From: a virus
DNA length: 56,793 bases
Strand: one strand, 5' to 3'
Virus record (IMG/VR): IMGVR_UViG_3300048839_000639
Location: 1-56,793 of that record
The translations under genes were made by a program, and so were the position numbers. Shown here one piece after another: positions 3,900-17,639 of the stretch (positions are counted from its first letter, which is position 1; each line of letters starts with the position of its first letter). The notes beneath the pieces were generated by a model. It searched no databases and had not been told where the DNA came from. It saw only the letters and a program-made list of their open reading frames with translations.

Positions 3900-4020
3900 T
3901 CTGACGCTCGTCAGCCGACACTTGCCAGCCTCACACCGTCGGCAGGTGAGCCGGCCCCGTGTAGGAGAACGTGTAGAACATATGTCCTTTGCGACAATCA
4001 GGGTGTAGACGTTTCTCCTC

Positions 4021-4347
4021 TTGGTGTGCCGGCTGTGGATTTTTGGGGACACACAGCCGGCAACCGAAAAATTGACTGTGGGGCAAAGCACAGCAGAAAC
4101 CGCGCACCCTCGTGCGGCTGGACCAGCCGCAGGATTCACACCCGACCCCGACGCGACACCACAAACGCCCTTTGAGGCGGAGCTGTTGCGCAATCTCCTC
4201 AGATTCATTCGGGCGCTCGATCAAAAACACAACATCGTCTTACAGCGCGGCATGTGGGTGGCCGTGCGCGCTTCACCGCGCGGCAGCGCAGGGCCGGACG
4301 CAAAACTGCTTGAGCTTGACAGCCGCATATTCAACAACGAATCATGA
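4021..4347 (+). CDS. Hypothetical protein
   Basis: The frame gives up to 108 residues from TTG 4021; GTG 4024 is equally possible and the true start may lie further in. The C-terminal half (TPFEAELLRNLLRFIRALDQ) is a clear amphipathic helix followed by a beta-rich piece. The stop overlaps the next ATG (4344), which supports expression together with the phosphoesterase gene. The region 3900-4020 upstream holds no other gene. Family unknown. Confidence 0.55.
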   Translation: MVCRLWIFGDTQPATEKLTVGQSTAETAHPRAAGPAAGFTPDPDATPQTPFEAELLRNLLRFIRALDQKHNIVLQRGMWVAVRASPRGSAGPDAKLLELDSRIFNNES

Positions 4348-5630
4348 GCGGCAAACTATCGGATTACTGGATTGAAAAAGAGCCGGTATTGGTAGCAGAA
4401 GCACAAAATAGAATCGTGAACGGCAAGATGCCCTTCGGCGGATGGAACGAGATTGCTTCCATCGTAGGCCGGCCAGCATCGCAGTGTCAGCAGCAGTATC
4501 AACGCGCCGTCCAGTCGGGCAGGGCCGGCCGCGAGGACACCGCAGAGCCGGCCAGAGACCCCGTTGCAGAAGAAACAGAGCGGCGCGACCGCATGCGCCG
4601 GCTGCGCGAGGAACAAGAGTTACTTAAGGCCGTGGCCGGCGAGAAGTCCTTGCGCGCCATGCTGGACGCACTGGCCGAGAAGGCCGCTGCGCGTTTCACG
4701 GCGCCGCCACCCTACAGAGCGCCCAAGCCCACCAAACGCACCACGCGAGAAAGCATGGTCATGTTGCTGAGTGACTGGCACAGCGCCGAAGTCATCTCCA
4801 AAGAAGGCACCCGCGGCCACAATGAATACAACGCCTTGATTACATCGCAGCGCGCGCGGCGGGTGACCGACGGCGCAATCGGCATCAAGTCAAAACTTGA
4901 GGCCGGCGGCTGGCACTTCGATGAGATGGTCGTCGCGCTCAATGGCGACTTCGTTCCTGGCACGATCCACGAGATTGAGAAGTTCACCGATGCGGCCAAT
5001 GTGGTGGTCAATGTGCACGGCACCGCGTGGATTCTGGCGCAAGCCCTGCGCGACCTGGCCGGCGTGTATCCAACACTGCGCGTTTATTGCTTGAGCGGCA
5101 ATCATGGCCGGCTGCCCGATGCACGCCGGATGCAGCAGAAGGAGCCGCTGCGCAACTGGGACACGCTCGTGTATCTCTACGCAAGGGCGTTTCTGTCGAA
5201 TGTGCCAAACATCGAATGGCACATCCCCAACGCCTACAGCGTCCTGTTTGACGTGAAGGGCTTCACGTTTGCGCAGACGCATGGACACGACATCAAGGGC
5301 TGGGCCGGCATCCCGTTTTACGGCATCCAGCGATCCACGCGCAACCAGAACGCGCTTGAAGCGGCGCGCCGGCGCACCATCAACTATTGGCTGCTGTCGC
5401 ACTTTCACACGCAATCCAGTCTGCCGCAGGCGGCCGGTGAGGTGTTTGTGAACGGCAGTCTGTGCGGCGGCACGGAATACACGGTGAACGGCCTGGGCGC
5501 GGCAGACCCGCCCAACCAGCTCATGTTTGGCGTGCATGCCGAGCACGGCGTGACGCATCGATGGCCGCTGTATGCATCGGCTGAGGCGGATGCGCCGAGC
5601 TACGACATGGGCGGGTGGGTGATCGGGTGA
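4344..5630 (+). CDS. Calcineurin-like metallophosphoesterase
   Basis: The 428-residue product carries the metallophosphoesterase signature in order: LLSDWHSAE (D-x-H), LNGDFV (GDxx), LSGNHGRL (GNH), THGHDIKG (H) and LSHFHTQ (HxH). These residues bind two metal ions and hydrolyse phosphodiesters or phosphomonoesters. Residues 5-60 (WNEIASIVGRPASQCQQQYQ) look like a Myb/SANT-type helix-turn-helix, and a charged helical linker follows, so the enzyme may be tethered to DNA. Phage enzymes of this build are usually annotated as DNA-repair-type exonucleases; the substrate here is unknown. It ends at a terminator. Confidence 0.85.
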   Translation: MSGKLSDYWIEKEPVLVAEAQNRIVNGKMPFGGWNEIASIVGRPASQCQQQYQRAVQSGRAGREDTAEPARDPVAEETERRDRMRRLREEQELLKAVAGEKSLRAMLDALAEKAAARFTAPPPYRAPKPTKRTTRESMVMLLSDWHSAEVISKEGTRGHNEYNALITSQRARRVTDGAIGIKSKLEAGGWHFDEMVVALNGDFVPGTIHEIEKFTDAANVVVNVHGTAWILAQALRDLAGVYPTLRVYCLSGNHGRLPDARRMQQKEPLRNWDTLVYLYARAFLSNVPNIEWHIPNAYSVLFDVKGFTFAQTHGHDIKGWAGIPFYGIQRSTRNQNALEAARRRTINYWLLSHFHTQSSLPQAAGEVFVNGSLCGGTEYTVNGLGAADPPNQLMFGVHAEHGVTHRWPLYASAEADAPSYDMGGWVIG

Positions 5631-5634
5631 CAAC

Positions 5635-5671
5635 AAAAAAGCGCGGCACCTGTGAGCGTGCCGCACTTTTT
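5635..5671. terminator. Bidirectional rho-independent terminator
   Basis: A-run, then GCGCGGCAC and GTGCCGCAC (5641-5649 with 5658-5666, one mismatch), then TTTTT. It separates the rightward phosphoesterase gene from the leftward accessory operon and can serve both. Confidence 0.85.
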
Positions 5672-5682
5672 GCTACTGTGCT

Positions 5683-6114
5683 TTACCGCAGTGCCTCCAT
5701 CGGCGCTAGATTTTGCTCGCCCTTGCCAACGCGATTCCACCAGCGTTCTGCCGCGTCCACCAGCGTAAGCTTGTCGGTATATGACAGCGCGGCGAGTTTG
5801 CGCACCAGCGCCGGCCCGTCAACTTTCCATTTTTGGTCGAGGTGATTGAGCGAGATGGCGTCGCTGATTTCAGCGTCAATGAAGATGAGCGCGTGCTCGT
5901 CAAAAAATCCGGTGCCGTTCAGCGCATCCAGAATCAGCGAGATTTCGCCCTCGCTGAATTGCTCGCGCAGGCGCCGGCGTGCGACGGCCAGTACGTAGAG
6001 ATACCGCGACAGCATTTTGCTGATGGTGCCGCTGCGGTTTTCGCCGGCGTTGCGTAGCTCAATCTCGGCGGTGAGTTCGGGTTGCAGGGAGATGGGGAAT
6101 TTGTCGGCTGGCAT
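5683..6114 (-). CDS. Hypothetical protein, last gene of the leftward accessory operon
   Basis: The 143-residue product starts MPADKFPISLQPELTAEIEL, which could be a short strand and helix of a ribbon-helix-helix-like N-terminus (RSGTISKMLSRYLYVLAVAR). The remainder is helical and acidic. It follows the previous gene after three bases. Regulation of the operon is possible but unproven. Confidence 0.65.
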   Translation of the reverse strand: MPADKFPISLQPELTAEIELRNAGENRSGTISKMLSRYLYVLAVARRRLREQFSEGEISLILDALNGTGFFDEHALIFIDAEISDAISLNHLDQKWKVDGPALVRKLAALSYTDKLTLVDAAERWWNRVGKGEQNLAPMEALR

Positions 6115-6117
6115 GGG

Positions 6118-6333
6118 TTAATCCTTGATCCAGTCCCACAGCCGCTGTAACAGCGTGCGGGGCCGGCGATGCAGGTTGAGTCGCTTTGCCGCTTCTTGCA
6201 CGCTCAGCACATGCATGTGCGGCTTGATCTTCGTCGGGTCGATGAGCGTGACGCGCTGGCCGCGCAGGATGGCTACCGCGCGGCCGGTCTCGATCAACGT
6301 CAGCAGGTCTTCGTCAAACTCCTCGCGGTTCAT
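6118..6333 (-). CDS. Hypothetical small protein
   Basis: A 71-residue product overlaps the DUF1874 gene by ATGA. The part VLSVQEAAKRLNLHRRPRTL resembles a short helix-turn-helix of the excisionase/MerR kind but is too short to be sure. It lies between the DUF1874 gene and the terminal operon gene. Confidence 0.6.
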   Translation of the reverse strand: MNREEFDEDLLTLIETGRAVAILRGQRVTLIDPTKIKPHMHVLSVQEAAKRLNLHRRPRTLLQRLWDWIKD

Positions 6334-6656
6334 GCGCTGTATTCCACAGCGCAGTATTCATAGTCGCTGCGCTGCGGCACGTAGTTTTTGTCAGCTTTGC
6401 GCTTGGGGTCAACCAGGCGGAAGTTCAGCCGGCACACCAGCATCGTGTCGCCGCTGGCGAGCGTCGTCTCGGCGCGGCTCACCGGCACGTGCACACCAGC
6501 GATCTGCTGGATGTGCGTCGCAGTGGCTTCGTAGCCGACGAATGACTGAAACGGCGCGGCGCGCAGGCGCTCTGCAAATTCGGACTCGGTGAGCATCGTC
6601 ATGCGATAGGTGCCGGCCTGCGGCATCATCGCGGAGTTCATGAGTTTTGTGGTCAT
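6330..6656 (-). CDS. DUF1874 (STIV B116-like) protein, AcrIII-1 anti-CRISPR relative
   Basis: The 108-residue product follows the DUF1874 pattern closely: MNSAMMPQAGTYRM, then FVGYEATA, GVHVPVSRAE, LASGDTMLV, RLNFRLVD and a C-terminal YEYCAVEY. Characterised members (AcrIII-1) are dimeric ring nucleases that bind and cleave cyclic tetra-adenylate and so switch off type III CRISPR immunity. In those, the catalytic His lies in the GHExTA motif and a conserved Arg-x-x-Glu lines the pocket. Here the His position is Tyr42 and the second pair reads Arg80...Asp83. The protein may therefore bind rather than cleave the ring, or have another ligand. The start overlaps the upstream stop; Met6 is the start expected from relatives. 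Confidence 0.82.
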   Translation of the reverse strand: MTTKLMNSAMMPQAGTYRMTMLTESEFAERLRAAPFQSFVGYEATATHIQQIAGVHVPVSRAETTLASGDTMLVCRLNFRLVDPKRKADKNYVPQRSDYEYCAVEYSA

Positions 6657-6865
6657 TCGTGGTTGATCTCCTCGACAGCGGCTTCCGGAGTCGTGTGGAA
6701 TCCGCTGGTGTAGTGGCCGGCGGCGGTATACATCACCGCGCCGGCGGCGTCACGGTGGGCAAACACATCCACCTGTGCACCGCAGCAGTCATAGGTGACT
6801 GCGACGCGCAGTGTGTCAGAGTTTGCTCGGTCAAAGTCTTGCGGGGTGTGCGGTTTGATTTTCAT
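6653..6865 (-). CDS. Hypothetical small protein
   Basis: I place the start at the ATG at 6865 because longer versions would run through the terminator hairpin at 6873-6906. The 70-residue product (MKIKPHTPQDFDR...) has a CC pair and a C-terminal helix, with the middle AQVDVFAHRDAAGAVMYTAA probably beta-rich. It overlaps the DUF1874 start by ATGA, so the two are coupled. No ribosome site is obvious. Confidence 0.6.
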   Translation of the reverse strand: MKIKPHTPQDFDRANSDTLRVAVTYDCCGAQVDVFAHRDAAGAVMYTAAGHYTSGFHTTPEAAVEEINHE

Positions 6866-6872
6866 GGGAAAC

Positions 6873-6906
6873 AAAAAACGGCGAACACAAATTGATGTGT
6901 TCGCCG
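6873..6906 (-). terminator. Terminator inside the accessory operon
   Basis: On the minus strand CGGCGAACACA and TGTGTTCGCCG (11 bp, loop of 6) are followed directly by TTTTTT. This would end transcripts of the upstream gene or attenuate the DUF1874 pair downstream. Confidence 0.8.
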
Positions 6907-7005
6907 GCAGTCGCGCTCTTTCAGAATTTCTTTTCGCCACTAAGGGCAATTCTGCAAAAGTTGCAGTCCCCTCGTGCGGGGTTGGCTGCGCGACTGCCGG
7001 CGAGT

Positions 7006-7581
7006 CTACATCGTCTCCACCTCGGCGTCAATCACGACGCCATCTTCGTCGCGGTATGTGCCCACGCGCCGACCGCGCAGGTATTCAACCTCGGCCATTC
7101 CGCTTTCGCTGAGATACAGCGGGGCGGCTTCCTCGCCCATGCGCAGGTAGCCATACGCTGCCTCGCTCCACTCGTCGGGGAGCGTGGGCGTGATGTCGCG
7201 GTCGTGGTCGCCGCGCTCCACCTTCTCCGCGTGCTGACACGCGGGGACGGTGATTGACATGTGCAGCATCGGCATCGGGATGCAGGTGCGCGCGTCGAAC
7301 GAGCGGATGTTGAGCAGGTCGTAGTAGCCAACCTCGCCTGAGTCGGCGTCGTAAAACATAGACTCAAGGCCGGCGTCAACCTCGACAAAAAAGAACGTCT
7401 GAAACGTCTGCGCGCTCAAGTCGCGTTTGTTGCGCGTGATGATGTGCAGCGCGGCGACGAAAAACAAATTCGCGCTGTAGTAATCGCCGGCGTTCTTTGC
7501 GCGCTCGATCAACTCGATGAGTGCGTGAATTTCGGCGAAAACGTCGGGCTTGGTCGGCATGTTCATGGCTTTTGCTGTCAT
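7006..7581 (-). CDS. Hypothetical protein of the accessory operon
   Basis: The likely start is ATG 7581 (MTAKAMNMPTKPDVFAEI), with ATGs at 7566 and 7560 as alternatives; longer forms would run back through the upstream hairpin. The product of about 191 residues has a helical N-terminal third (HALIELIERAKNAGDYYSAN), a middle with SMFYDADSGEVGYYDLL, and an acidic C-terminus. No family is recognised. The purine-rich GAGAGGGG that could act as ribosome site lies inside the 3' arm of a 12-bp hairpin, suggesting control at the translation level. Confidence 0.65.
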   Translation of the reverse strand: MTAKAMNMPTKPDVFAEIHALIELIERAKNAGDYYSANLFFVAALHIITRNKRDLSAQTFQTFFFVEVDAGLESMFYDADSGEVGYYDLLNIRSFDARTCIPMPMLHMSITVPACQHAEKVERGDHDRDITPTLPDEWSEAAYGYLRMGEEAAPLYLSESGMAEVEYLRGRRVGTYRDEDGVVIDAEVETM

Positions 7582-7618
7582 CCCCTCTCGCGGGGATATT
7601 TCATCGCCGCGAGAGGGG
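7582..7618 (-). promoter_or_regulatory. 12-bp hairpin covering the ribosome site of the downstream gene
   Basis: CCCCTCTCGCGG (7582-7593) and CCGCGAGAGGGG (7607-7618) pair perfectly around a 13-base loop. On the minus strand the arm nearest the gene ends exactly before the ATG at 7581. It may block ribosome access, act as a processing site, or mimic a CRISPR repeat (see findings). Confidence 0.7.
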
Positions 7619-7634
7619 AGAGTGTGTTGATGGA

Positions 7635-8627
7635 TTAGAGCGCCCTCACAAGCCACTGCATGTATTCGGGCGAGTCAACAGCCACGGCTTCGCACGGCTC
7701 GATTTCTTCCTCGTAGCCCTCATCAGTCGGGCTGTCGCTGGCGGCCTTGACCAGCCAGACGATTTTGACGCGATCCGGTTCCAGGTTCGGATGCGCGAGG
7801 AGCACCGCGTCGCGCTCGTTGAGGGCTTCGATGGAAGGGCAGACGCGGTCTTTCCATTCGGCGGCATCCTCGTAGTCGAGGACGTAGCCAGGAAACTCGG
7901 CGGCGGCGCGCTCAATGAAATACAGCCGTCCGCACTCGTGGCCGGCGGCCATGCCACGGCGCAGGCGTTCGCTGCCGTGCTCGTTTGCCCACGCGATACG
8001 CGCATCGCGTGCAGCTTGCTTCGCCGCTTCCTTCTCGGCGGCTTCCGCCGCCTTGCGCGCTTCGGCCTCGGCCTTGAAAGCGGGTTGCAGTGCGAGGTAT
8101 TCAGCGCGCGCGGCTTCATAAGCGCGCAGGTCGATTTCCGCGCCGGCCTCGCGCGCGTTCGCCATCTGCCGGTCAATGTTGCCGCCGGTGTAGGTCGCGC
8201 TGCGCGCCTCGATCAACGCGCGGTAGTTGGCCGCGATGCCGTCAATGTGAGCCTGCGCACTCACGCGCACCTGCTCGCGGTGCAGCGCGGCGAGGCGGTC
8301 GAACTCGGCCTGATGCATCTCGCGCGATGCGAGTGCATTGCCGGCGCGCGCGATCCAGTCAGCGATGCTTGGCAGCGTCTCAAACTCGTCAGCTCGCTCG
8401 GTGATCCACTGAGGCGCGCCAGTGGTGCTATACATCTGCCGCGCGCCAGTGGTGCGCGCCGGCATCTCATAGCACTCGTTTTTCACACAGCGCACGAGCA
8501 CCGCGCGCTGCTCAGGGGTGAGCAACACGGGATCGAACTCAATGCGCTCAGTGCGCGCGAGTTGCTTGCCGGTGGCGATGAAATGAGCACTAATCAGTTT
8601 CTGCGTCGGGTGAAATTCTGCGAACAT
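7635..8627 (-). CDS. Coiled-coil hypothetical protein
   Basis: ATG 8627 follows AGGAG with six bases between and gives 330 residues (MFAEFHPTQKLISAHF). Residues about 90-230 are rich in Ala/Glu/Arg and form long helices (for example KAEAEARKAAEAAEKEAAKQ), consistent with a coiled coil. The ends are mixed and acidic. No catalytic motif is seen. It is the longest gene of the accessory operon. Confidence 0.75.
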   Translation of the reverse strand: MFAEFHPTQKLISAHFIATGKQLARTERIEFDPVLLTPEQRAVLVRCVKNECYEMPARTTGARQMYSTTGAPQWITERADEFETLPSIADWIARAGNALASREMHQAEFDRLAALHREQVRVSAQAHIDGIAANYRALIEARSATYTGGNIDRQMANAREAGAEIDLRAYEAARAEYLALQPAFKAEAEARKAAEAAEKEAAKQAARDARIAWANEHGSERLRRGMAAGHECGRLYFIERAAAEFPGYVLDYEDAAEWKDRVCPSIEALNERDAVLLAHPNLEPDRVKIVWLVKAASDSPTDEGYEEEIEPCEAVAVDSPEYMQWLVRAL

Positions 8628-8687
8628 TGGTTTCTCCTGCCGGCACCTGCCGGCTGAATCAAATCTGATGTGCACATGCTCATCAGT

Positions 8688-8725
8688 CCCGCTGCGCGGG
8701 AGACACCCCCACCGCGAGGGTGGGG
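8688..8725 (-). promoter_or_regulatory. Two adjacent GC-rich hairpins upstream of the coiled-coil gene
   Basis: CCCGC-TGC-GCGGG (8688-8700) is followed by CCCCACC-GCGAG-GGTGGGG (8707-8725). Read on the plus strand the second continues into GATGTTTCG. No T-run follows on either strand, so a plain terminator is unlikely. The layout repeats the hairpin-before-gene pattern seen at 7582-7618. Confidence 0.6.
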
Positions 8726-8740
8726 ATGTTTCGCTGTGCA

Positions 8741-9067
8741 CTATCGGATGATCGTGAGGCCGCCCTGACCGTGGCTGCGCTTTGCGCCGGTGCGCCCCAC
8801 GTAGATTTCGAACGCGCCATTCGCCCTGCGGTTGGCTTCCGCGTAGGTGATCTGCGCATTACCGAAATAGCAGTTGGCGACAAACCCATCGCGGCTATAG
8901 CGGCGGATGCGGTCAGCAGTGGGGTTTTCGTCGATTGCCGCAAGGAGCTTGTCGATGTCGCTGTTGTAAAGCACGCGCGTGCGTGCGCGGCCCTCGATGG
9001 CATCAGCGGCATTGCGAAGGGTGGTCTTGATGTCGGACTGGTCGGTATTCGGAGTGTAGGTAATCAT
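8741..9067 (-). CDS. Hypothetical protein, first gene of the accessory operon
   Basis: ATG 9067 gives 108 residues (MITYTPNTDQSDIKTTLR). The N-terminal half is helical (DKLLAAIDENPTADRI); the C-terminal half (VANCYFGNAQITYAEANRRA) looks alpha/beta with a Gly-rich end. It is the first gene after the promoter at 9133-9161. Family unknown. Confidence 0.7.
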   Translation of the reverse strand: MITYTPNTDQSDIKTTLRNAADAIEGRARTRVLYNSDIDKLLAAIDENPTADRIRRYSRDGFVANCYFGNAQITYAEANRRANGAFEIYVGRTGAKRSHGQGGLTIIR

Positions 9068-9132
9068 TTGTCGTTTCCTCGTTCACTTGAACTTTGGTAG
9101 CTCGCACACTTGTGCTTGCCGTCGATAGATGT

Positions 9133-9161
9133 ATGGTAACACCATAGTAATACCGTGTCAA
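9133..9161 (-). promoter_or_regulatory. Leftward promoter with operator for the accessory operon
   Basis: On the minus strand TTGACA (9156-9161), a 17-base spacer and TACCAT (9133-9138) form a good sigma-70-type promoter. The palindrome ATGGT-AAC-ACCAT (9133-9145) overlaps the -10 box, a position suited to repressor binding. Confidence 0.75.
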
Positions 9162-9169
9162 GGGGTGGA

Positions 9170-9532
9170 AGGGATGAATTTTGAATCATCCAATGATTGA
9201 GTGAAAACCGCCCAAAATCCGCGCCTCGGTCACTCGCACGAGGAAACACCCGCACGAGCGTGCAAACGCCACGCCCTGCGCGCCCCTGTGCGCGCGCAGC
9301 GGTATGATTCCGGTGTCGCCGCAGCGAGGGCGGATCGCAACTAGGGCGTTTATTGCGCGTCGGGCCAGTAGGATGCACCCGACCGGCGGCAACCAACGAC
9401 CATCGGCTCCAACGCGCGAGACGGCGCTGAAATGCCGGTGCAGGGCAACCTGTGCGCCGCCGGCCTTCGGTCCAAACAGGCACACCAAACGGGCATATAA
9501 TGCCCACAACGAAATAGCCAGCCAGCGATTAC
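9170..9532. other. Gene-free stretch with no recognised content
   Basis: About 360 bases between the leftward promoter and a rightward hairpin. Open frames exist on both strands but none resembles a protein, and none has a good ribosome site. The only items noted are GGGCAT-ATA-ATGCCC (9491-9505), a palindrome that contains a TATAAT -10-like box, and several GC-rich inverted repeats. A promoter for 9584 onward may lie here. Confidence 0.5.
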
Positions 9533-9567
9533 GCGGCGGCAATCTATCTCCGATAGGTTGCCGCCGC
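9533..9567 (+). terminator. 16-bp hairpin before the 9584 gene
   Basis: GCGGCGGCAATCTATC pairs with GATAGGTTGCCGCCGC (one G-U pair) around a 3-base loop, followed by GTTTGCGTTTT. It could terminate incoming transcripts or attenuate the cluster that starts at 9584. Confidence 0.6.
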
Positions 9568-9583
9568 GTTTGCGTTTTCCGCC

Positions 9584-9829
9584 ATGTCACCACAGGCAAA
9601 AGTCTTTCATGTCGTGTCCGTGAAGCTCCTGGTCGAGTCCACAAAGGACGGTGACGGCACTGCGGCTTACGAGCAAACGCTGGTTGCGCTTGAAGCCGCG
9701 CGCGGCCTGATTGCGCACGTCACAGGACGGGAAGTGCGCACGAAGGCGGCGATTTTGGAGCCGATTCGACTGATCGAACTGGCCCACGAGGAACAACCTC
9801 AAGAGGAAACAACCGATGACCGCAAGTGA
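9584..9829 (+). CDS. Hypothetical protein
   Basis: The 81-residue product from ATG 9584 (MSPQAKVFHVVSVKLLVEST) has a beta-strand start and a helix (YEQTLVALEAARGLIAHVTG), ending acidic. It overlaps the next gene by 14 bases. No family is recognised; it opens the membrane-protein cluster. Confidence 0.65.
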   Translation: MSPQAKVFHVVSVKLLVESTKDGDGTAAYEQTLVALEAARGLIAHVTGREVRTKAAILEPIRLIELAHEEQPQEETTDDRK

Positions 9830-10106
9830 ACTTTCCGCACTGGCCGGCGTGATCCTGTCGCTGGCCTTCTCCTATGTCCCTGGCCTCAGTGCGTGGTTTG
9901 GCGACAAAGAGCCGACGGTGAAGCGCCTCATCATGGCCGGCGTGCTGCTGGTGGCCGTGGCTGCAATCTTCGGCCTGAGCTGCGCCGGCGTGCTCACCGC
10001 AGCGACCTGCGACCAGCCTGGTGCGGTGGGCCTCGCTGCCGCTTTTCTGTCTGCACTCGTTGCCAATCAGGCAACGTATCTCATCAGTCCGAGGCCGGCT
10101 GAGTGA
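9816..10106 (+). CDS. Small membrane protein, holin-like
   Basis: The 96-residue product has three hydrophobic stretches (residues about 5-25, 38-60 and 68-90) with a short charged loop FGDKEPTVKR between the first two. Size, charge and position beside another small membrane protein fit a phage holin, which makes the membrane hole at lysis. There is no recognisable endolysin next to it, so the assignment is tentative. It overlaps its neighbour by ATGA-type spacing (GTGA at 10103). Confidence 0.5.
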   Translation: MTASELSALAGVILSLAFSYVPGLSAWFGDKEPTVKRLIMAGVLLVAVAAIFGLSCAGVLTAATCDQPGAVGLAAAFLSALVANQATYLISPRPAE

Positions 10107-10405
10107 ATCCAGAGCGTGAAGGGCAGGTCACTCTAATGGATCAATACGCAGGTGCTTTTCTGGACATCGTTCGGCTGGTGCTGGTGGCCGTGGCCGCGTC
10201 GTTCGGCTCAACCGCTGCGCTCGTGCGGCATTTTGGCCGGCGCGAGGACATCGACCGCGCGGAAATAACGCGGCTGAAAGAAAACGAGGCGCGTCAAGAC
10301 CGCAAGATCGAGGATTTGCAGATTCAGGTCAAGACACTCACCGAATTTATGCGCTCGTCAGGGCATGACCCAAACCTCTACAGCGCCGCCCCACAAACCG
10401 GCTAG
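10103..10405 (+). CDS. Membrane-anchored coiled-coil protein (zero-frame product)
   Basis: The 100-residue product starts at GTG 10103 (a second possible start is ATG 10136). Residues about 16-38 are one membrane segment (IVRLVLVAVAASFGSTAALV), followed by a charged coiled coil (RLKENEARQDRKIEDLQIQV) that should lie in the cytoplasm. Near the end the message carries the heptamer CCCAAAC at 10369-10375 in the frame needed for -1 slippage, followed by a strong hairpin containing the stop. A fraction of ribosomes could thus continue into the effector-associated domain. Alone, the short form could be a holin partner or antiholin. Confidence 0.7.
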   Translation: MNPEREGQVTLMDQYAGAFLDIVRLVLVAVAASFGSTAALVRHFGRREDIDRAEITRLKENEARQDRKIEDLQIQVKTLTEFMRSSGHDPNLYSAAPQTG

Positions 10406-10412
10406 GCGGCGC
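10369..10412 (+). promoter_or_regulatory. Putative -1 programmed frameshift signal
   Basis: C-CCA-AAC (10369-10375) fits the X-XXY-YYZ slippery rule in the frame of the 10103 gene. Seven bases downstream an 8-bp perfect GC stem (10383-10390 with 10405-10412) with a 14-base loop follows. The zero-frame stop TAG (10403-10405) touches the right arm. The -1 frame is open from here to 10632. Confidence 0.6.
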
Positions 10413-10434
10413 CGGACACATTCGTGAAACGCTG

Positions 10435-10632
10435 TTGGGCCGGCTTTTGAATGAGTTTGACAACAACGAAATCGACGACTTGCGATTGAAACTTGGATGG
10501 CGACAAGACGAACTTTGGAGCGACGGCGCAACCCTCGACGAACGGGCGCGCGCGCTGGTGGAAGCCTGCACGCGGCACGGCTCGCTCGGCTCGCTGCTGC
10601 GGCTGGTCGAGTTGTCGCGCCCTTCGTCGTGA
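10435..10632 (+). CDS. Effector-associated (death-like) domain, probably a -1 frameshift extension
   Basis: The frame carries GRLLNEFDNNEIDDL, LKLGWRQDEL, RARALVEACTRHGSL and a final SRP. This matches effector-associated domains (EADs), small helical adaptors that recruit effectors in NTPase-based bacterial conflict systems. The first usable start (TTG 10435) lies inside helix 1 and has no ribosome site, while the helix begins upstream at IRETLLG in the same open frame. The -1 shift at 10369-10375 restores the full domain and gives a 176-residue membrane-anchored fusion. The EAD call rests on pattern recognition; the fusion is inferred. Confidence 0.6.
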   Translation: MGRLLNEFDNNEIDDLRLKLGWRQDELWSDGATLDERARALVEACTRHGSLGSLLRLVELSRPSS

Positions 10633-10814
10633 TGGCGCTGCTGGCGCTGCTGGCCGGCGTGATGGTGCTGATGATCGCGCGCGCCGGCGATGCCTGGTGC
10701 AGCGCGGCCATCCGCTGGCATGAGCCGCATCCGCAATCTAACTACCGCATCCCGTATCGCCCCTGTGAGGCGAACGGGTGGGGCAATGAATGGGAAATCG
10801 CCGGCATTCCATAG
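10632..10814 (+). CDS. Small single-pass membrane or secreted protein
   Basis: ATG 10632 overlaps the previous stop (TGATG); GTG 10629 is possible. The 60-residue product has one N-terminal membrane segment (ALLALLAGVMVLMIARAG) then a polar tail with two Cys (DAWCSAA and YRPCEAN), Pro and Trp, likely outside the membrane. The layout recalls small spanin-like or exclusion proteins, but no family is recognised. Confidence 0.55.
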   Translation: MALLALLAGVMVLMIARAGDAWCSAAIRWHEPHPQSNYRIPYRPCEANGWGNEWEIAGIP

Positions 10815-10828
10815 CCGGCAGGAGAAAC

Positions 10829-12043
10829 ATGAACAACAAAGCTCGACACATTTCTGTTTTGATTCTGGCCGTGGCAATGCTCGCCACGCTGCCGGCCAGC
10901 GCGCAGGTGCCGAACGGCTATGACCCGCGCTTCGACATCAACGGCGACAACGTGATGGACATCCGCGACGTGACGATGCTCAGCACCGTCATTCAGGCCA
11001 ACTACGGCGCAACGAACAACACCGCGCCGGCCACGGCCACGCCGGTGGTCACCTCGACAGCCACCGCAACCCCTGCGCCGGCATCCACGGCGACGCCGGC
11101 GCCGACGGCAACGCCTGGGCACGATCACACCGCGCTCAATCGCTGCGGCGTGCCAATCGACCAGTGGTGGACGGCCACGGAGCCGAACGGCTGCGAGAAC
11201 GGCAGCGAGCGCGGCGACGCGCCGCCCACATGGGTAAAGGCATATGAAACGCAGCGCGGACGCACGTTCTCCATGCACGGCCCCAACCTCACCAGCGCGT
11301 CCGAGGCGTCCATGAAATTCATGGTCATGAAAGGCTATGGCTTCACTGTGCCGGTGGTCAGGCCGCGCAATGTGAACGTCGATGTGTATTGCGTGGTGCA
11401 CGGCGGCAGCGTGCCGTTTGAGCGCGCGCAGAAGGTGCATAGCTGGCGCTGCTGGTTCCGTGAGGGTGACAACGGCAACATCTCGGCCATTCAGGGCTGG
11501 TATCGAGCCCCTGGGTTTGCGTTTGAGCGCATCGTCGGTTTCGACGGCACGCCCAACCGCAACAACTTCCCCATTATTTTTGCGCCGTCTCGCGCATCGG
11601 CGGCGGCCGGTGGTGGCGGCTGCGAGCAGTGGTATGTCGGCGCGGCCGGCAGCGAGCCGAACATTGAATTCGGCATCACGTTCTGCGGCACGGTGGCATT
11701 CTGGCAGCCCAACGAAACCGCGCTGGACTTCGACATGTCGAAGTGGGACTTGAGCGGCCACAGCGGCACGCGCAGGCGCATGGAAATCAGCTACTACAAA
11801 ACTACGCGCCCCGACAACCAGCGCACCGGCATCTACTGGGCCACGCAGGCCGGCGTCCCAGTGAGCGGCCCGAATGATCCGGCCTGCACCGGCTCAACCG
11901 TGATTGACGGCGTGAGTTACGCGACGTTGTGCCTGGAGCAGAACGTCAGCACGACCCTGCCGGAAATCTCGTTTGCTTCGACGAACGGGCGCAATGCCTT
12001 TGAGCGCGATTACCCATCTGATGGCGTTGTCGCACCCAACTGA
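10829..12043 (+). CDS. Secreted protein with dockerin-like motif and Thr/Pro linker
   Basis: ATG 10829 follows GCAGGAG and gives 404 residues; the upstream alternative lacks a signal. Residues 1-26 are a signal peptide ending in ASA. Then FDINGDNVMDIRDVTML matches one calcium-binding half of a type I dockerin (DxNxDxxxDxxD). A Thr/Pro/Ala linker of about 45 residues follows (TATPAPASTATPAP). The C-terminal 280 residues, with several Cys and Trp, are of unknown family. Dockerins normally need two such segments; only one is clear. Such secreted proteins are rare in phages and may be cargo that alters the host surface. Confidence 0.75.
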   Translation: MNNKARHISVLILAVAMLATLPASAQVPNGYDPRFDINGDNVMDIRDVTMLSTVIQANYGATNNTAPATATPVVTSTATATPAPASTATPAPTATPGHDHTALNRCGVPIDQWWTATEPNGCENGSERGDAPPTWVKAYETQRGRTFSMHGPNLTSASEASMKFMVMKGYGFTVPVVRPRNVNVDVYCVVHGGSVPFERAQKVHSWRCWFREGDNGNISAIQGWYRAPGFAFERIVGFDGTPNRNNFPIIFAPSRASAAAGGGGCEQWYVGAAGSEPNIEFGITFCGTVAFWQPNETALDFDMSKWDLSGHSGTRRRMEISYYKTTRPDNQRTGIYWATQAGVPVSGPNDPACTGSTVIDGVSYATLCLEQNVSTTLPEISFASTNGRNAFERDYPSDGVVAPN

Positions 12044-12113
12044 CCGCGCCGGACAAAACACAGTGACCCTGCCGGCGCGCACCCTGCGCGCCGGCTATTT
12101 GGAGGAATAACCC

Positions 12114-12749
12114 ATGATTAACGCAGACTTTCGACCGCGTGGCACGCTGATGGCGCGCCACATCAAGGCGCAGCGCGCGCCGCTTTCGTGGCGGCTGCGC
12201 AACATCCTGCGCTGGACCTACGTGTGGGGATTCATCGTGAACACCCTCGCACGGATTTTCAGCAAGATCACCGGCGCGGTGACGCTGACCAGCGAGCTGC
12301 GCGGACGGCTGCGCAAGGCAGACGGCCAGTGGATCGATTACGGCGTGCTCAGCCGGCGCGTGATTACGGATGCCGGCGTCACGTTCCTGCGCGACGACTT
12401 CAACAACAACGCGCAGGACATCACCACGCTCAACTTCCACGGCTGCGGCACCGGCACGACCGCCGAGGCCGCTGGACAGACCGCGCTCGTCACCGAATCG
12501 ACCACCGTCCTCAATCCAGACAGCACGCGCGCGACCGGCACGCGCTCGACGCCGGCGGCCAACCAGTTTCAAACCGTCGGCACGCTGACGTTCGACGCAT
12601 CGGCGGCCATCACCGAGCACGGCGTGTTTTCGCAGGCCGCGACCGGTGGCGGCACGTTGTGGGATCGCAGCGTATTCTCGGCCATCAACGTGGCATCGGG
12701 CGACTCGATCCAGTTCACCTACGTGCTGACCTTGACCGCCGGCGGCTAA
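12114..12749 (+). CDS. Probable phage surface/structural protein
   Basis: ATG 12114 follows GGAGGAAT and gives 211 residues. After a basic, partly hydrophobic start (WRLRNILRWTYVWGFIVNTL) the body is Thr/Ala/Gly-rich and beta-like. The segment ITEHGVFSQAATGGGTLWDR followed by NVASGDSIQFTYVLTL resembles a beta domain I associate with phage virion accessory proteins. It precedes two other probable surface proteins. The exact role is unknown. Confidence 0.55.
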   Translation: MINADFRPRGTLMARHIKAQRAPLSWRLRNILRWTYVWGFIVNTLARIFSKITGAVTLTSELRGRLRKADGQWIDYGVLSRRVITDAGVTFLRDDFNNNAQDITTLNFHGCGTGTTAEAAGQTALVTESTTVLNPDSTRATGTRSTPAANQFQTVGTLTFDASAAITEHGVFSQAATGGGTLWDRSVFSAINVASGDSIQFTYVLTLTAGG

Positions 12750-12771
12750 CCCCTGCCGGCGCGAGCCGCAA

Positions 12772-14655
12772 ATGGCAAGCATCTTTTCTGACGGCTTTGA
12801 ATCGGGCGACTTCTCCGCATGGTCATGGACGACCGTGAACGGCACAGGCGCGTCCGTGGCTGTCAGCAACACCGCAGAGCGCACCGGCACATACGGCTTT
12901 ATTGCCGAGGGCGCGACAGGCGCCCAAAGCTGGAATGCATATGCGGTCAAGTCGTTCACCGCGCCGGCATCCAACGTCATTCACGCGCGTTTCTGGTTCA
13001 ACATTCAGGCCGCGTCATCGGGCGGCGGCCTGCGCGTATTCCGGTTGAATGGCAGTGGCTTGTTCAATCTGTTTCGCCTGCTCGACTACTATGGCACATG
13101 GCGCATTGCACTGCGCAAGCGCGACGGCAACAACGAGAAGATTGACCTTTCCGGAGGCATTCCCACGGCGCAGTGGGTGAAGGTCGATGTGCTGTATGAC
13201 ATCTCTGGCACAAACCCTGTGCTAAAGGTGTGGGTTGACGGCACAGAGAAGGTGAATTTCACCGACACGACGAGCGGCACGACAGCCATGCCAAATGAGA
13301 TGCAACTTGGCGGCGCAGAGGAGGCATGGACGCAAACAGCGACACTGTGGTTTGATGATCTTGATGCGTGGGATGACGCATCAAACGTCCCTGGCAGTTC
13401 GCAGCAGTTCAACCAGAGCATTGCCGGATCGCTCACTTCTGCCGGCAGTATCGCGCGGCGCACGGGCAAACGGCCTGCCGGATCGCTCACTTCTGCCGGC
13501 GCCATTACACGGCGCGCCGGCAAACGCGCCACGGGTGGACTTACCAGCGCCGGCAGCATCGTGCGGCGCGCCGGCAAACGCGCCACGGGTGGACTTACCA
13601 GCGCCGGCACCCTCAGCAAACAAACGCGCACAACGAAGGCCGGCTCGCTCACCAGCAGCGGCGCCTTGTCGGTGGTGCGCGCATTCCTGATGGCACTGGC
13701 CGGCAGCCTCTCGGCGGCCGGTGTCCTGCTTAAGCAGACCGTCAAGCCGGCGTCGGGATCGCTCACGGGCGCCGGCAGCATCAGCAAACAGACGCGCACA
13801 ACGAAGGCCGGCACACTCACCAGCGCCGGCACCTTGTCGGTGGTGCGTGCATTCCTGATGGCACTGGCCGGCGCGCTTGCCACCGCCGGCGCACTGGTCA
13901 AGCAAACGCGCACGACTGAGGCGGGATCACTCACCAGCGTCGGCACCCTCAGCAAACAAACGCGCACAACGAAGGCCGGCACGCTCACGAGCGCCGGCAC
14001 CCTGGCCGTGATTCGGACGTTTCTCAGGGCGCTTGCTGGCACGCTTGCAGCGGCTGGCAGTCTCGCGCGGCAGACCGTCAAGCGGCCAGCCGGCACACTC
14101 ACCGCAGCCGGCACCCTCAGCAAACAAACGCGCACGGCGAAGGCTGGCACGCTCACGAGCGCCGGCACCCTGGCCGTGATTCGGACGTTTCTCAGGGCGC
14201 TTGCTGGCACGCTTGCAGCGGCTGGCAGTCTCGCGCGGCAAACGCGCACGGTTGAAGGCGGGGCGCTTGCAAGCAGTGGCACGGTTTCACGGCAAACACG
14301 CGCGACGAAGGCCGGCGCGCTCACCCTGGCCGGTGGGGTGGTGAAGCGCATCGGCGTGAGTGCTGCGGGTGTGCTCGACAGCGCCGGCGCGATCACCAAG
14401 CGGGTGGCTGTTGGACTCGGCAGCGCGCTCACCCTGGCCGGCGATCTGGCAAAGCAGACTCGCGTAAGGGCCGCGGGTGTGCTGGCGAGTGCCGGCGCGA
14501 TCACCAAGCGGGTGGGCATCCGGCTCGGCGGCACGCTGGCGAGCGCCGGCGCTGCGGTCATTCAACTGGCGCGCGCGCTCCTGATCGACTTTCGCATGAA
14601 GGGCGACGATGCCATGCAGATGCGCGACGATGACGACGAAATGAGGATGGAGTAA
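12772..14655 (+). CDS. Repeat-rich probable tail fibre/adhesin with LamG-like head
   Basis: The 627-residue product starts MASIFSDGFESGDFSAWSW. Residues 1-205 look like a concanavalin/LamG-type jelly roll (WVKVDVLYDISG, LKVWVDGTEK, LWFDDLDAWD). Residues about 220-600 are tandem repeats of 17-18 residues with core AGxLTSAGxLxxxTR, near 22 copies, some grouped into longer blocks with FLMALAG or FLRALAG inserts. This suggests an elongated beta-solenoid or shaft. The end is acidic. Carbohydrate binding plus shaft fits a receptor-binding or decoration fibre. No ribosome site is obvious. Confidence 0.65.
   Translation: MASIFSDGFESGDFSAWSWTTVNGTGASVAVSNTAERTGTYGFIAEGATGAQSWNAYAVKSFTAPASNVIHARFWFNIQAASSGGGLRVFRLNGSGLFNLFRLLDYYGTWRIALRKRDGNNEKIDLSGGIPTAQWVKVDVLYDISGTNPVLKVWVDGTEKVNFTDTTSGTTAMPNEMQLGGAEEAWTQTATLWFDDLDAWDDASNVPGSSQQFNQSIAGSLTSAGSIARRTGKRPAGSLTSAGAITRRAGKRATGGLTSAGSIVRRAGKRATGGLTSAGTLSKQTRTTKAGSLTSSGALSVVRAFLMALAGSLSAAGVLLKQTVKPASGSLTGAGSISKQTRTTKAGTLTSAGTLSVVRAFLMALAGALATAGALVKQTRTTEAGSLTSVGTLSKQTRTTKAGTLTSAGTLAVIRTFLRALAGTLAAAGSLARQTVKRPAGTLTAAGTLSKQTRTAKAGTLTSAGTLAVIRTFLRALAGTLAAAGSLARQTRTVEGGALASSGTVSRQTRATKAGALTLAGGVVKRIGVSAAGVLDSAGAITKRVAVGLGSALTLAGDLAKQTRVRAAGVLASAGAITKRVGIRLGGTLASAGAAVIQLARALLIDFRMKGDDAMQMRDDDDEMRME
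13421..14580 (+). repeat. Tandem coding repeats of about 51-54 bp
   Basis: Units such as CTCACCAGCGCCGGCACC and AAACAAACGCGCACAACG recur through the 3' two thirds of the gene. Two long blocks, near 13960-14065 and 14140-14245, are almost identical. Recombination between units could change shaft length. Confidence 0.85.
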
Positions 14656-14671
14656 GGACGGAGAAGGACGG

Positions 14672-14980
14672 ATGAACAAACGCGAACTTGCCAACAGCCC
14701 AGTGGCGCAGTCGGTGCGCGAGAAACGCGCGCGCAGGATCGAGCTTCAAGCCGGCCTCGGCGCCGGCAGTCCATCGGTCAAGGTGTTCGACGAACTCACA
14801 GGGGTGGACATCAGCGCGGTCGCCGGCGTGCTCACCGGCGCGGCCTCGATCACAGACGATGTGTTTACCACGCCTCAGATTCAGCCGTCCACGGCGTGGC
14901 GGTCGTATCGCGTGGAGTGCTGGTTTACCGTCGGCTCTGAGCAGTGGATTCGCTACTTTCGCCTGATCGCCGAGGCGTGA
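14672..14980 (+). CDS. Hypothetical phage protein
   Basis: ATG 14672 follows GAAGGA and gives 102 residues. The N-terminus is charged (RELANSPVAQSVREKRARRI); the rest is a small beta protein ending in VECWFTVGSEQWIRYF. It closes the probable surface-protein cluster and may be a fibre accessory. No family is recognised. Confidence 0.6.
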   Translation: MNKRELANSPVAQSVREKRARRIELQAGLGAGSPSVKVFDELTGVDISAVAGVLTGAASITDDVFTTPQIQPSTAWRSYRVECWFTVGSEQWIRYFRLIAEA

Positions 14981-15162
14981 ATGGATGCGTGAACGGATGC
15001 GTGAGACGATGAAAAGGCGGCGGGGTGTGTGCAGTGCGGTGCGCGTTGGCGGGAATCTCCTCGGCATGGTGGGCGAGCTTTCAGGCAGTCCACCATCGCA
15101 CCTCCCGCCAATCCGCCCAACAGTCACACCCCACAGCCGGCCACATGGACGCGATCACGCGC

Positions 15163-15200
15163 AACAATATTGTATACGTGTATACGATTTTATGGTTAAC
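15163..15200 (+). promoter_or_regulatory. AT-rich palindromic operator region
   Basis: Within the gene-free stretch 14981-15214, CAATATTG is followed by GTATAC-GT-GTATAC (15172-15185) and an AT-rich tract leading to GGGAGGG before the GTG at 15215. Paired GTATAC palindromes suggest a repressor operator at the promoter of the 15215 gene. Confidence 0.5.
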
Positions 15201-15214
15201 GGGAGGGCAGACCT

Positions 15215-15451
15215 GTGTTAATCCAGACTGAGCCAGACGGCACGATCACGTTTCTTTCGCCGCGCACAAAGCGCGTGCTTTTCAAGATGCGTGACGGGCA
15301 GCTCATCATCCGCGAACGGGCGGACGCATCGAGCGATGACTTTTGGTATATCCCTGTGCCGATGCTGGCACGGGCTGACGCGGTGGCGCGGCTCGGCCAT
15401 GATCCCGCTGCGCTTGAGGAGAGTCTAGGGGTTGTTGTGTGCCGGCCCTGA
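15215..15451 (+). CDS. Hypothetical small protein
   Basis: GTG 15215 follows GGGAGGG and gives 78 residues. Predicted strands (TITFLSPRTKRVLFKMRDGQ) precede a helix (ADAVARLGHDPAALEESLG). The gene lies alone between an operator-like region and a tRNA-like gene. Family unknown. Confidence 0.6.
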   Translation: MLIQTEPDGTITFLSPRTKRVLFKMRDGQLIIRERADASSDDFWYIPVPMLARADAVARLGHDPAALEESLGVVVCRP

Positions 15452-15461
15452 CCGGCAGTCA

Positions 15462-15534
<73 letters not shown>

Positions 15535-15569
15535 TATTTTGTGTTTGCTCTCCGTATATACTTGCGCGC

Positions 15570-15773
15570 ATGTCTGAACTGAACACGCGCGCCGCCGAAC
15601 TGGTGGCGCGCGCAAAAATCAAGTCGCTGTGGACAGAATGGACAAGCGGCATCATCACTTCCGCCGATGCCAGGCAGCGCGTGAAGGAAATGAAAAACAG
15701 CCCGCAAGGCATCCCTGACGCCGTGCGGGCTGAGTTTGACGAACTGGATCGCGCTGTTTCAAGCGCCGTCTAG
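15570..15773 (+). CDS. Hypothetical small protein
   Basis: ATG 15570 begins 35 bases after the tRNA-like gene and gives 67 residues (MSELNTRAAELVARAKIKSL). It is fully helical and charged, with no cysteine. The stop overlaps by four bases with the stop of the leftward excisionase-like gene. Confidence 0.65.
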   Translation: MSELNTRAAELVARAKIKSLWTEWTSGIITSADARQRVKEMKNSPQGIPDAVRAEFDELDRAVSSAV

Positions 15774-16030
15774 CCTTCCTCTTTGGTCTTCGCTGGATGC
15801 TTTTTGCGCCATCCGTGATAGGGCGCGTTTGGCTTCTCCTTCGGGCCGCGCTTGTCGTGAACGGCAAACTGCTTCAGGTCGGCTTCCGCAAAGCGATGCT
15901 CCCGCCCGACCTTGACCCCGATGCTTTTGCGGCGCGCAAACGCGCGCACCGCCTGCTCCTGCTTGCCCAGCTTGCGGGCCACGTCGCCCACGCTGTAGGG
16001 GTATGCGCACATGAAATCCTGAATGTCCAT
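15770..16030 (-). CDS. Excisionase-like winged-helix DNA-binding protein
   Basis: ATG 16030 gives 86 residues. YPYSVGDVARKLGKQEQAV, then KSIGVKVGREHRFAEADLKQF, matches the MerR/excisionase helix-turn-helix: recognition helix, wing, and the R-F-x-x-D-L closing segment. The tail is basic. Such small proteins direct recombinases or repress promoters; with two integrases in this genome it is a candidate recombination directionality factor, although it lies 23 kb from them. An inverted repeat in its own promoter (16039-16057) suggests autoregulation. Confidence 0.7.
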   Translation of the reverse strand: MDIQDFMCAYPYSVGDVARKLGKQEQAVRAFARRKSIGVKVGREHRFAEADLKQFAVHDKRGPKEKPNAPYHGWRKKHPAKTKEEG

Positions 16031-16037
16031 GCGCCGG

Positions 16038-16057
16038 ATTGTATCACCGCAATACAA
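16038..16057 (-). promoter_or_regulatory. -10-like box and operator upstream of the excisionase-like gene
   Basis: TTGTAT and ATACAA (16039-16044 with 16052-16057) form an inverted repeat around seven bases. On the minus strand it contains TACAAT (16038-16043), a -10-like box eight bases before the ATG, so a leaderless or very short-leader message is possible. Confidence 0.5.
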
Positions 16058-16061
16058 AACA

Positions 16062-16949
16062 CTAGAAAGGCGGATCATTGAGCACCTCCAGGGTGAACAA
16101 GGCCGGCTGTAAAACGGGTTGCAAAACAGGTTGCGCCACGGGCGCCGGCGTTGCCACTGCATCAATGCCTGCGCGGGCGGCGTCCGGCGCCGGCGCGCCA
16201 CTGAATGGGAAGGGCTTGACCATCCACGGCGCAAACAGATAGCCATTGACCAGCGCGGCTTTCACGCACACATCAAGGATGTCCTGCCCGTAAAGGCAGT
16301 AGGAATGATTACTGGCGTGCAGCAGCATGCGCCCCGTGCCCATTGCCGGATCGCTCACCGTCTTCCAGCGCGCGTCTTTCTGTGCATCTTCGTCGCCAAA
16401 CGTCATGCGCGTCATCATCTCCGCAACTGAATGCGGCGTGGGATAAAAGCCGGCGCGCCGGCCAATGGCGCACTCGGCCATCAGGTCGCCGAGGATGTCG
16501 TAAGGGTGAAGCATCGGCCAGGCCAGGTTGAAGGTTTGATACAGCCGCATGGACGCGCCTTTGCGCGGCTCTCGCGGCAGTTCTGACTGCGAGCTGTGGC
16601 CGAAGCCATAGAGCAGCCAGCGCAGGAAATAGTCGAGATGTTCCCAGCTTGACCAGCCCAGCCAGCCGCCATCGGCCACGAGGTCGAGGCACTTCTCGAT
16701 GTGCCTGCGGGCCAGCGCAACGCCGGCCATGTCGTCGCCAAAGTCTATGCGCGGGATGGGGCCGGCATCCCCGTCGGCGCCGGCTTCCATCACCGCGCAC
16801 CAGTGCGCCCAGCGCCCGTATCCCATCTCATCCACGCCGATGAGATAGGGCAGAAGCCAGCCGGCCTTGAGATCGCGCTGAAGCGACTCGTCGATTGCAT
16901 GGGGCTTGAGGGCGCGCAGCCGCGCGCGCATGTCGTAGAGTGTGCTCAT
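16062..16949 (-). CDS. N6-adenine DNA methylase-like protein, possibly truncated
   Basis: The 295-residue product contains GFYPTPHSVAEMM (motif X region) and SDPAMGTGRML (motif I, SAM binding) followed by YGQDIL, as in N-6 DNA methylases of type I/IIG systems. The catalytic motif IV ([DN]PP[YF]) normally follows by 60-80 residues with a target domain beyond; here the protein ends in LNDPPF, so motif IV is the last four residues. It may be a natural minimal form or truncated and inactive. It lies downstream of the amidotransferase gene, separated by a terminator. Confidence 0.75.
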   Translation of the reverse strand: MSTLYDMRARLRALKPHAIDESLQRDLKAGWLLPYLIGVDEMGYGRWAHWCAVMEAGADGDAGPIPRIDFGDDMAGVALARRHIEKCLDLVADGGWLGWSSWEHLDYFLRWLLYGFGHSSQSELPREPRKGASMRLYQTFNLAWPMLHPYDILGDLMAECAIGRRAGFYPTPHSVAEMMTRMTFGDEDAQKDARWKTVSDPAMGTGRMLLHASNHSYCLYGQDILDVCVKAALVNGYLFAPWMVKPFPFSGAPAPDAARAGIDAVATPAPVAQPVLQPVLQPALFTLEVLNDPPF

Positions 16950-16952
16950 GGC

Positions 16953-17007
16953 AAAAAAGAGGACAAAAAAGAGGGTAAAAAAGAGGCTGGGCTATTTCAG
17001 CCCAGCC
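16953..17007 (-). terminator. Terminator with three T-tracts overlapping the amidotransferase stop
   Basis: On the minus strand GGCTGGGCT/AGCCCAGCC (16985-17007, loop of 5, containing the TGA stop region) is followed by three consecutive CTCTTTTTT-type tracts reaching the next gene's ATG. This is unusually long for a terminator and would strongly reduce read-through into the methylase gene. Confidence 0.8.
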
Positions 17008-17627
17008 AGAAACCACTTGAACAGCGCCGCCCATTTCGGCTCACTGTTCCACAACATCTCAGGATGCCACTGCACCCCCAGCGCGCCCGGGCGGTGGATC
17101 GCCTCGATCACGCCGTCATCCGAGCGCGCCGCCACATCGAAACCTGCCGGCACCATTCGCGTGGACTGGTGGTGGTAGGAGTTCACCGTATAGGTGGGCA
17201 GGTGCTTGCGCAGGCTCATGCGCACGTCCTGCAAGCGGTGCACCGAGGGGTGATGGTCTGTCAGGCCGTCCTGATGGATGTCCTGATACAAGGATCCGCC
17301 GGCGGCCACGGTCAGCATCTGGTGGCCGCGGCAGATGCCAAACACCGGCTTGTCTTCGTTGAGCGCGCGCCGCGCCAGCATCCATTCAACGCGATCACGC
17401 TTCCATGAGGATTCACTGACTTGTGAATGCCGCTTCGCCTCGCCGTAAAAAAATGGGTGAATGTCCGCGCCGCCCAGCAGCATCAGGCCATCGAATGGGG
17501 TGGAGTAAGCCTCTTCCATCGTGGTGATGAGTTCGATGCGAATGTCGGGCTTGAGGGCGCGCAGGATGCTGTAAACGCTGCCGGTGGCCGTGCCTTCGTG
17601 GAGGGCCACAGTGTTAAGAGTTTTCAT
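16992..17627 (-). CDS. Class I glutamine amidotransferase, peptidase C26 type
   Basis: ATG 17627 gives 211 residues. The nucleophile elbow FGICRGHQ (Cys99), NSYHHQ (149-154) and VQWHPE (His188, Glu190) form the catalytic triad of gamma-glutamyl hydrolase/PuuD-type amidotransferases. GLMLLGGADIHP is the usual oxyanion region. These enzymes hydrolyse gamma-glutamyl amide bonds. The gene follows the amidoligase in the same direction, an association known from amidoligase biosynthetic and phage clusters. The two likely make and trim, or charge and release, a gamma-linked amide. The leader contains four GAGATTG repeats. Confidence 0.88.
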   Translation of the reverse strand: MKTLNTVALHEGTATGSVYSILRALKPDIRIELITTMEEAYSTPFDGLMLLGGADIHPFFYGEAKRHSQVSESSWKRDRVEWMLARRALNEDKPVFGICRGHQMLTVAAGGSLYQDIHQDGLTDHHPSVHRLQDVRMSLRKHLPTYTVNSYHHQSTRMVPAGFDVAARSDDGVIEAIHRPGALGVQWHPEMLWNSEPKWAALFKWFLAGLK

Positions 17628-17639
17628 GGTCTGTCCTAT

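Follow-up and report, generated by a model that had tools for sequence, protein, structure and literature searches.

A tyrosine-type branch of the DUF1874 family, with a putative anti-type-III-CRISPR member in a temperate phage contig

Can a viral protein of the AcrIII-1 family (DUF1874) still act on the cyclic nucleotide signal of type III CRISPR (clustered regularly interspaced short palindromic repeats) systems when the catalytic histidine of its ring nuclease relatives has been replaced by tyrosine? This question is raised by the gene at positions 6330-6656 of the virus record IMGVR_UViG_3300048839_000639, which was analysed over its whole stretch of 56,793 nucleotides (hereafter the window), a contig of a tailed temperate phage encoding a major head protein, a head morphogenesis protein, a tape measure protein and two integrase/recombinase genes. 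An initial annotation, made from the sequence alone, had assigned this gene to the AcrIII-1 family with tyrosine in place of the catalytic histidine, and had supposed that such a variant may sequester the signal, act on another cyclic nucleotide or be slow. The open reading frame (ORF) was located as annotated, on the minus strand and encoding 108 amino acids, and its tyrosine was found to mark a branch of the family that, judged from sequence comparisons, is conserved and widespread. Whilst the family, its fold and the anti-type-III role of its histidine-bearing members are already known, the role of natively expressed AcrIII-1 is reportedly disputed.

A DUF1874 protein with altered catalytic residues

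The features on which the argument rests are as follows.

6330..6656, minus strand: tyrosine-type (Tyr-type) DUF1874 (STIV_B116-like) protein of 108 amino acids, a putative anti-type-III-CRISPR protein (Pfam, PHROG, AlphaFold2 model and structure matches)
6522..6536, minus strand: GYEAT motif, residues 41-45, with Tyr42 at the position of His45 of AFV3-109 (alignments)
6396..6419, minus strand: segment R80-L-V-D83-P-K-R-K87, in which the arginine is retained, the glutamate of the opposing subunit is replaced by aspartate, and Lys87 is invariant in the clade (alignment counts)

The family assignment was confirmed by a match to PF08960 (DUF1874/STIV_B116-like) above the gathering cut-off (41.4 bits versus 26, E 1.6e-10) and by a match to PHROG 5063; none of the members examined had an NCBIfam match over cut-off. 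The nearest solved structure by sequence was AFV3-109 (2j6b, E 2e-6), in the alignment with which GYEATA was paired with GHQATA, and Asn6, Gly44, His45, Thr48, Arg64, Arg83 and Glu86 of AFV3-109 corresponded to N7, G41, Y42, T45, R61, R80 and D83 of the window protein. A monomer structure predicted with AlphaFold2 (alignment of 39 sequences, mean predicted local distance difference test score of 93.8) likewise matched AFV3-109 best (Z 15.6), followed by the AcrIII-1 of SIRV1, gp29 (6scf, Z 15.5 over 106 aligned residues at 16% identity), and the H495A form of Csx1-Crn2 with bound cyclic tetra-adenylate (cA4; 8y7g, Z 15.3). The five-stranded sheet with helices on one side that typifies DUF1874 was recovered (Z 13-16, including STIV B116, 2j85), whereas the best structure match outside DUF1874 had a Z of only 3.0, although model and family assignment are not independent, as histidine-type (His-type) members were part of the input alignment. 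The PADLOC model PDLC01147, named Csx16, evidently also covers DUF1874, as it scored the window protein at 40.7 bits, His-type proteins at up to 69 bits and Tyr-type proteins lower, at 16.5-53 bits; that tool may therefore report DUF1874 copies as Csx16.

In the AFV3-109 dimer, a hydrogen bond links His45 to the carboxylate of Glu86 from the opposing monomer, Arg64 contacts His45, and the ligand pocket is lined by His45, Asn6, Thr48 and Val90 together with Glu86 of the second monomer (PMC1796864). Where the ring nucleases have their active-site histidine (H47 of SIRV1 gp29, H495 of Csx1-Crn2), the window protein has Tyr42, as do all members on its side of the family tree (26/26). The glutamate of the RxxEG motif, which pairs with that histidine across the dimer, is Asp83 in the window protein and was absent from the 25 aligned Tyr-type proteins (Asp in 15, Asn in 3, others in the remainder), whilst 34 of 38 His-type proteins had Glu at this position and 34 of 38 had Gly after it; the following residue was Pro in 19 of 25 Tyr-type proteins. 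The initial annotation had read RLVD in place of Arg-x-x-Glu, which holds for the glutamate, but the arginine itself is retained. Lys87, the ungapped counterpart of Val90 of AFV3-109, is a new lid-loop residue relative to AFV3-109 and STIV B116 and was invariant in the Tyr type (25/25). The EGxxL lid and helix of AcrIII-1 accordingly have as their Tyr-type equivalent the pattern DPxxK(G)...D[YFW]E, and in most members the C-terminal helix of the His type gives way to a segment that terminates in D[YFW]E.

The remainder of the site is largely that of the known proteins. The counterparts of the pocket and dimer-contact residues Asn6, Arg64 and Arg83 (roles from PMC1796864) are present in the window protein and throughout most of the clade (N7 and R61 in 25/25, R80 in 22/25), and Thr45 is among the conserved pocket residues, so that the Asn/Thr/Arg/Arg pocket is shared with AcrIII-1, likewise a small stand-alone viral protein. 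A substitute catalytic histidine was ruled out, in that no histidine is invariant in the Tyr clade and several members have Phe or Ile where the window protein has His48. Neither this nor loss of the nucleotide pocket, the two findings that the initial annotation had named as fatal to its proposal, was thus encountered.

A joint change of the catalytic histidine and the glutamate of the opposing subunit is the expected outcome of remodelling of the site, not of decay, and the His45-Glu86 contact across the AFV3-109 dimer provides a structural reason for their coordinated replacement. Taken with the gain of the invariant lysine and the conservation of the clade, this argues for selection on a remodelled active site and against a damaged enzyme. 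As ring nucleases, AcrIII-1 and Crn2 are characterised by a dimer that holds cA4 in its cradle and by rapid cleavage of cA4 that needs no metal. The window protein belongs to DUF1874 and may function in the manner of the AcrIII-1 ring nuclease, but it cannot be called one because both of the defining catalytic residues are replaced.

One divergent Bacteroidota member, outside the 25-protein count (L079, 1450-1794, minus strand), kept the tyrosine but had Lys for Arg61 and EG in the loop, and is possibly an intermediate or a degenerate copy.

Membership, phylogeny and selection in the Tyr-type branch

The Tyr-type set was gathered by scanning contigs, from viruses and from genomes, together with Pfam searches of genomes, and the His-type comparison set by a His-type scan together with named phages. 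Across these metagenomic viral contigs and genomes, position 42 was Tyr in 26 distinct proteins and His in 38, counts that reflect a biased sampling, as GY forms part of one of the two patterns with which the largest scan for the Tyr type was made; it is absent from the other pattern (L[ML]NSA...) and from the Pfam searches. When the three genomes found with the Tyr query were set aside, the Pfam searches returned the Tyr type in three genomes (L014, L079 and L081) and the His type in two (L015; L080 and L082). Among the contigs with Tyr-type members are some named Chloroflexi, Caldisericaceae and Saprospiraceae, besides a large number of unnamed viral ones.

The two types were separated by one branch with a support of 100/99, present in 200 of 200 bootstrap trees. 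After removal of the motif columns and of all positions from residue 80 onwards, the best tree held the same split, at 80/17 and in 77% of bootstraps. A single switch between His and Tyr is therefore likely on the sequence evidence but not nailed down, given the weak support of the motif-free tree, and the trees are unrooted as to which state is ancestral. In the first tree the L015 protein grouped with the Tyr-type proteins, its branch being very long (3.37), and it was excluded from later trees.

Purifying selection acts within the Tyr clade, the ratio of nonsynonymous to synonymous substitution rates being 0.07-0.30 among six related copies and 0.06 in another pair. Decay of the gene was unsupported, given ratios of 0.06-0.30 in these subgroups and the invariant residues, and chance or misalignment behind Tyr42 was ruled out by the 26 homologues that retain it and by the agreement of separate alignments. 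The initial annotation had recognised the family and the loss of the general-acid histidine, but had missed the conserved clade, the coordinated change of the glutamate and the invariant lysine.

The passages retrieved by term searches from papers naming both DUF1874 and ring nucleases made no mention of a Tyr type. A survey of viral ring nucleases describes the manual removal of matches without key conserved residues as false positives (PMC12409355), a step that would discard the Tyr branch in the same way despite its conservation and spread. The branch would appear either to perform the same job by different chemistry or to have changed its job. As a natural set, it allows one to ask if the histidine general acid is needed, if ring nucleases can be converted to sponges by phages, or if other signals are recognised within the family, and it would extend candidate anti-type-III proteins to mobile elements of the Chloroflexota, Caldisericota and Bacteroidota.

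Candidate functions and the type III CRISPR connection

We place first, though tentatively, the reading that this is a phage protein directed against type III immunity, which would still bind a cyclic oligoadenylate and probably cleave it through a Tyr/Lys/Arg site, as suggested by the conserved residues and by analogy. The temperate phage would carry this gene in a small minus-strand operon, and its product, as a dimer, would bind in its cradle one of the cyclic oligoadenylates that the Cas10 of type III CRISPR systems produces, cA4 being the likeliest; with the ring removed, the CARF effectors would stay inactive. Less certainly, cleavage would be metal-free, with the 2'-OH of the ring itself attacking the phosphate; Tyr42 would lie close to the leaving group and Arg61 at the phosphate, and Lys87, contributed by the lid loop of the other subunit, would stand in for the His-Glu pair. 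With greater reserve, the branch could represent a second class of DUF1874 ring nuclease, using inter-subunit Tyr/Lys/Arg instead of His/Glu in parallel to RelE versus YafQ/YoeB; screens based on His would miss such a class, which could be common among phages that have not been cultured. For RelE, atypical catalytic residues were reportedly described by Griffin in 2013. As to this precedent, toxins of the YafQ family use a Glu/His/Arg triad (PMC7584586), and RelE uses Tyr87, Arg81 being one of the other residues of its site (PMC4989188).

Several points weigh against such a cleaving enzyme. Martinez-Alvarez is said to have disputed in 2025 that natively expressed AcrIII-1 is an anti-CRISPR, which would also favour the role outside cyclic nucleotides considered last below. 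The histidine is essential for cleavage in those enzymes that have been assayed: the H495A form of Csx1-Crn2 did not degrade cA4 (PMC7293037), SIRV1 gp29 H47A was inactive, yet still bound cA4 with a dissociation constant of ~25 nM (PMC7213978). A Tyr-to-His change in RelE2 of S. cattleya abolished toxicity (PMC4989188), so that Tyr and His are not freely interchangeable there.

Real type III loci were present in three of six Tyr-bearing genomes (G004, G005 and G110), and in two of these, genes for Csx1-like CARF effectors adjoin cas10; the background of Cas10 palm matches was 81/301 in Chloroflexota (27%) and 48/296 in Bacteroidota (16%); enrichment is thus weak, a strong one was not shown, and the link of hosts to type III is suggestive only. 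A Cas10 palm match in the Caldisericaceae genome G003 (E 3e-7) was discounted, as the protein is a membrane protein resembling by eye a diguanylate cyclase.

The principal rival, which we consider unlikely, is that the Tyr type binds cA4 tightly and stoichiometrically without cleavage, starving Csx1-type effectors. Acb2, Tad1 and Tad2 act as sponges of this kind for other signals. The tight binding by H47A (PMC7213978) indicates that loss of the histidine does not cost binding, so the Tyr type could be a sponge; the pocket residues N7, R61 and R80 are retained, and Csx15 is suggested as a possible sponge in the survey cited above (PMC12409355). A simple sponge, however, leaves both the invariant Tyr42 and the invariant Lys87 (25/25) unexplained. 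Because it would need neither residue to be invariant, and in view of the RelE precedent, cleavage by a Tyr/Lys/Arg site was ranked ahead of sequestration, which was followed by a different ligand and finally by a role apart from cyclic nucleotides.

Less probable again is a changed ligand, whereby the remodelled site would bind or cleave cyclic tri-adenylate (cA3), cyclic hexa-adenylate (cA6), S-adenosylmethionine-AMP (SAM-AMP) or a nucleotide of the cyclic oligonucleotide-based antiphage signalling systems (CBASS). The lid loop has indeed changed in concert with the residue that faces the scissile phosphate, and a broad-specificity ring nuclease of a different fold, Crn4, exists (PMC12830947). 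Most pocket residues are nonetheless retained, and effector genes of the Csx1-like and CARF-PDDEXK kinds occur in the type III loci of two genomes with a Tyr-type copy. Such effectors usually belong to cA4 systems. The least probable alternative, a role of the branch in mobile elements such as nucleic-acid binding or regulation, has in its favour the weak binding of double-stranded DNA by AFV3-109 (5 uM; PMC1796864), but it is in the ligand pocket that the conserved residues lie.

A function as a CRISPR-locus ring nuclease, as for Crn2, was rejected for the Tyr type, since the window copy lies in a tailed-phage contig and no Tyr-type copy was found beside cas10, nor were CRISPR genes found near the Tyr-type copies inspected. 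Crn2 shares the fold and most pocket residues, but sits in type III loci and retains the histidine, both in H495 and in two further proteins. One of these (L015) is encoded ~4 kb from Cas10 on the same contig; the other (L104, 3992-4309), on the Vibrio aerogenes plasmid pLMG19650, is a His-type YddF-family protein in a type III-B CRISPR locus, between cas1 and RAMP/cas10. YddF of Bacillus subtilis and the YddF-like proteins of phages belong to the same Pfam family and share the mobile-element setting, and the named phage copies read had the GH of the His type in every case. In Vibrio phage Rostov 7 (L103, 560-909), the deposited YddF-like start (742) is internal, and the upstream frame reads MKLPIALLNTTIATTDG...

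The operon and the surrounding phage contig

Three neighbouring ORFs accompany the Tyr-type gene.

6653..6949, minus strand: upstream ORF of 98 amino acids, same operon, 4-base overlap (ORF list and sequence)
6118..6333, minus strand: downstream ORF of 71 amino acids, 4-base overlap (ORF list and sequence)
5683..6114, minus strand: ORF of 143 amino acids, a homologue of which adjoins the Tyr-type gene in a Saprospiraceae locus, L008 (clustering and sequence comparison)

ATGA overlaps occur on both sides of the Tyr-type gene, joining its start to the upstream stop (6653-6656) and its stop to the downstream start (6330-6333), hence it was read as a translationally coupled operon gene. Pfam and PHROG searches with the 98-amino-acid product gave no match above noise, and the 71-amino-acid product had only a weak helix-turn-helix match below cut-off (HTH_17, E 0.097). 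The 143-amino-acid protein, the N-terminus of which looks, by eye only, like a ribbon-helix-helix regulator, is homologous (32% identity, E 8e-10) to the product of the gene that immediately precedes the Tyr-type one in L008. A scan of viral contigs yielded no homologues of it beyond this one, and it was therefore not accepted as a conserved operon partner. In other loci, an amidase and tape-measure-like prophage genes adjoined the Tyr-type copy (L014/L097), an integrase lay beside that of L008, and regulator-like genes adjoined several copies, which fits anti-defence operons but proves nothing.

The window capsid was closest to that of Deep-sea thermophilic phage D6E (58%), and a megablast search of positions 4000-20000 against named phages gave no match. 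The contig encodes both a serine recombinase-type integrase (39195-40673, minus strand, PHROG 95) and a tyrosine-type integrase (41811-42773, minus strand, PHROG 1), along with two DNA methyltransferases of different PHROGs (45773-46777, minus strand, and 54649-55914, plus strand) and a phosphoadenosine phosphosulfate reductase-like gene (19362-20135). At 16992-18502 (minus strand), an amidoligase (PHROG 2443) adjoins a glutamine amidotransferase (PHROG 7218), an arrangement reminiscent of peptide- or wall-modification loci. A 627-amino-acid protein with a long degenerate repeat array (12772-14655, plus strand; DNA periods of 54, 168 and 336), which had no PHROG match, is perhaps a tail or host-contact protein. 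The sole tRNA of the contig, a tRNA-Val with anticodon aac (15462-15534, plus strand), could be a carried gene or the remnant of an attachment site.
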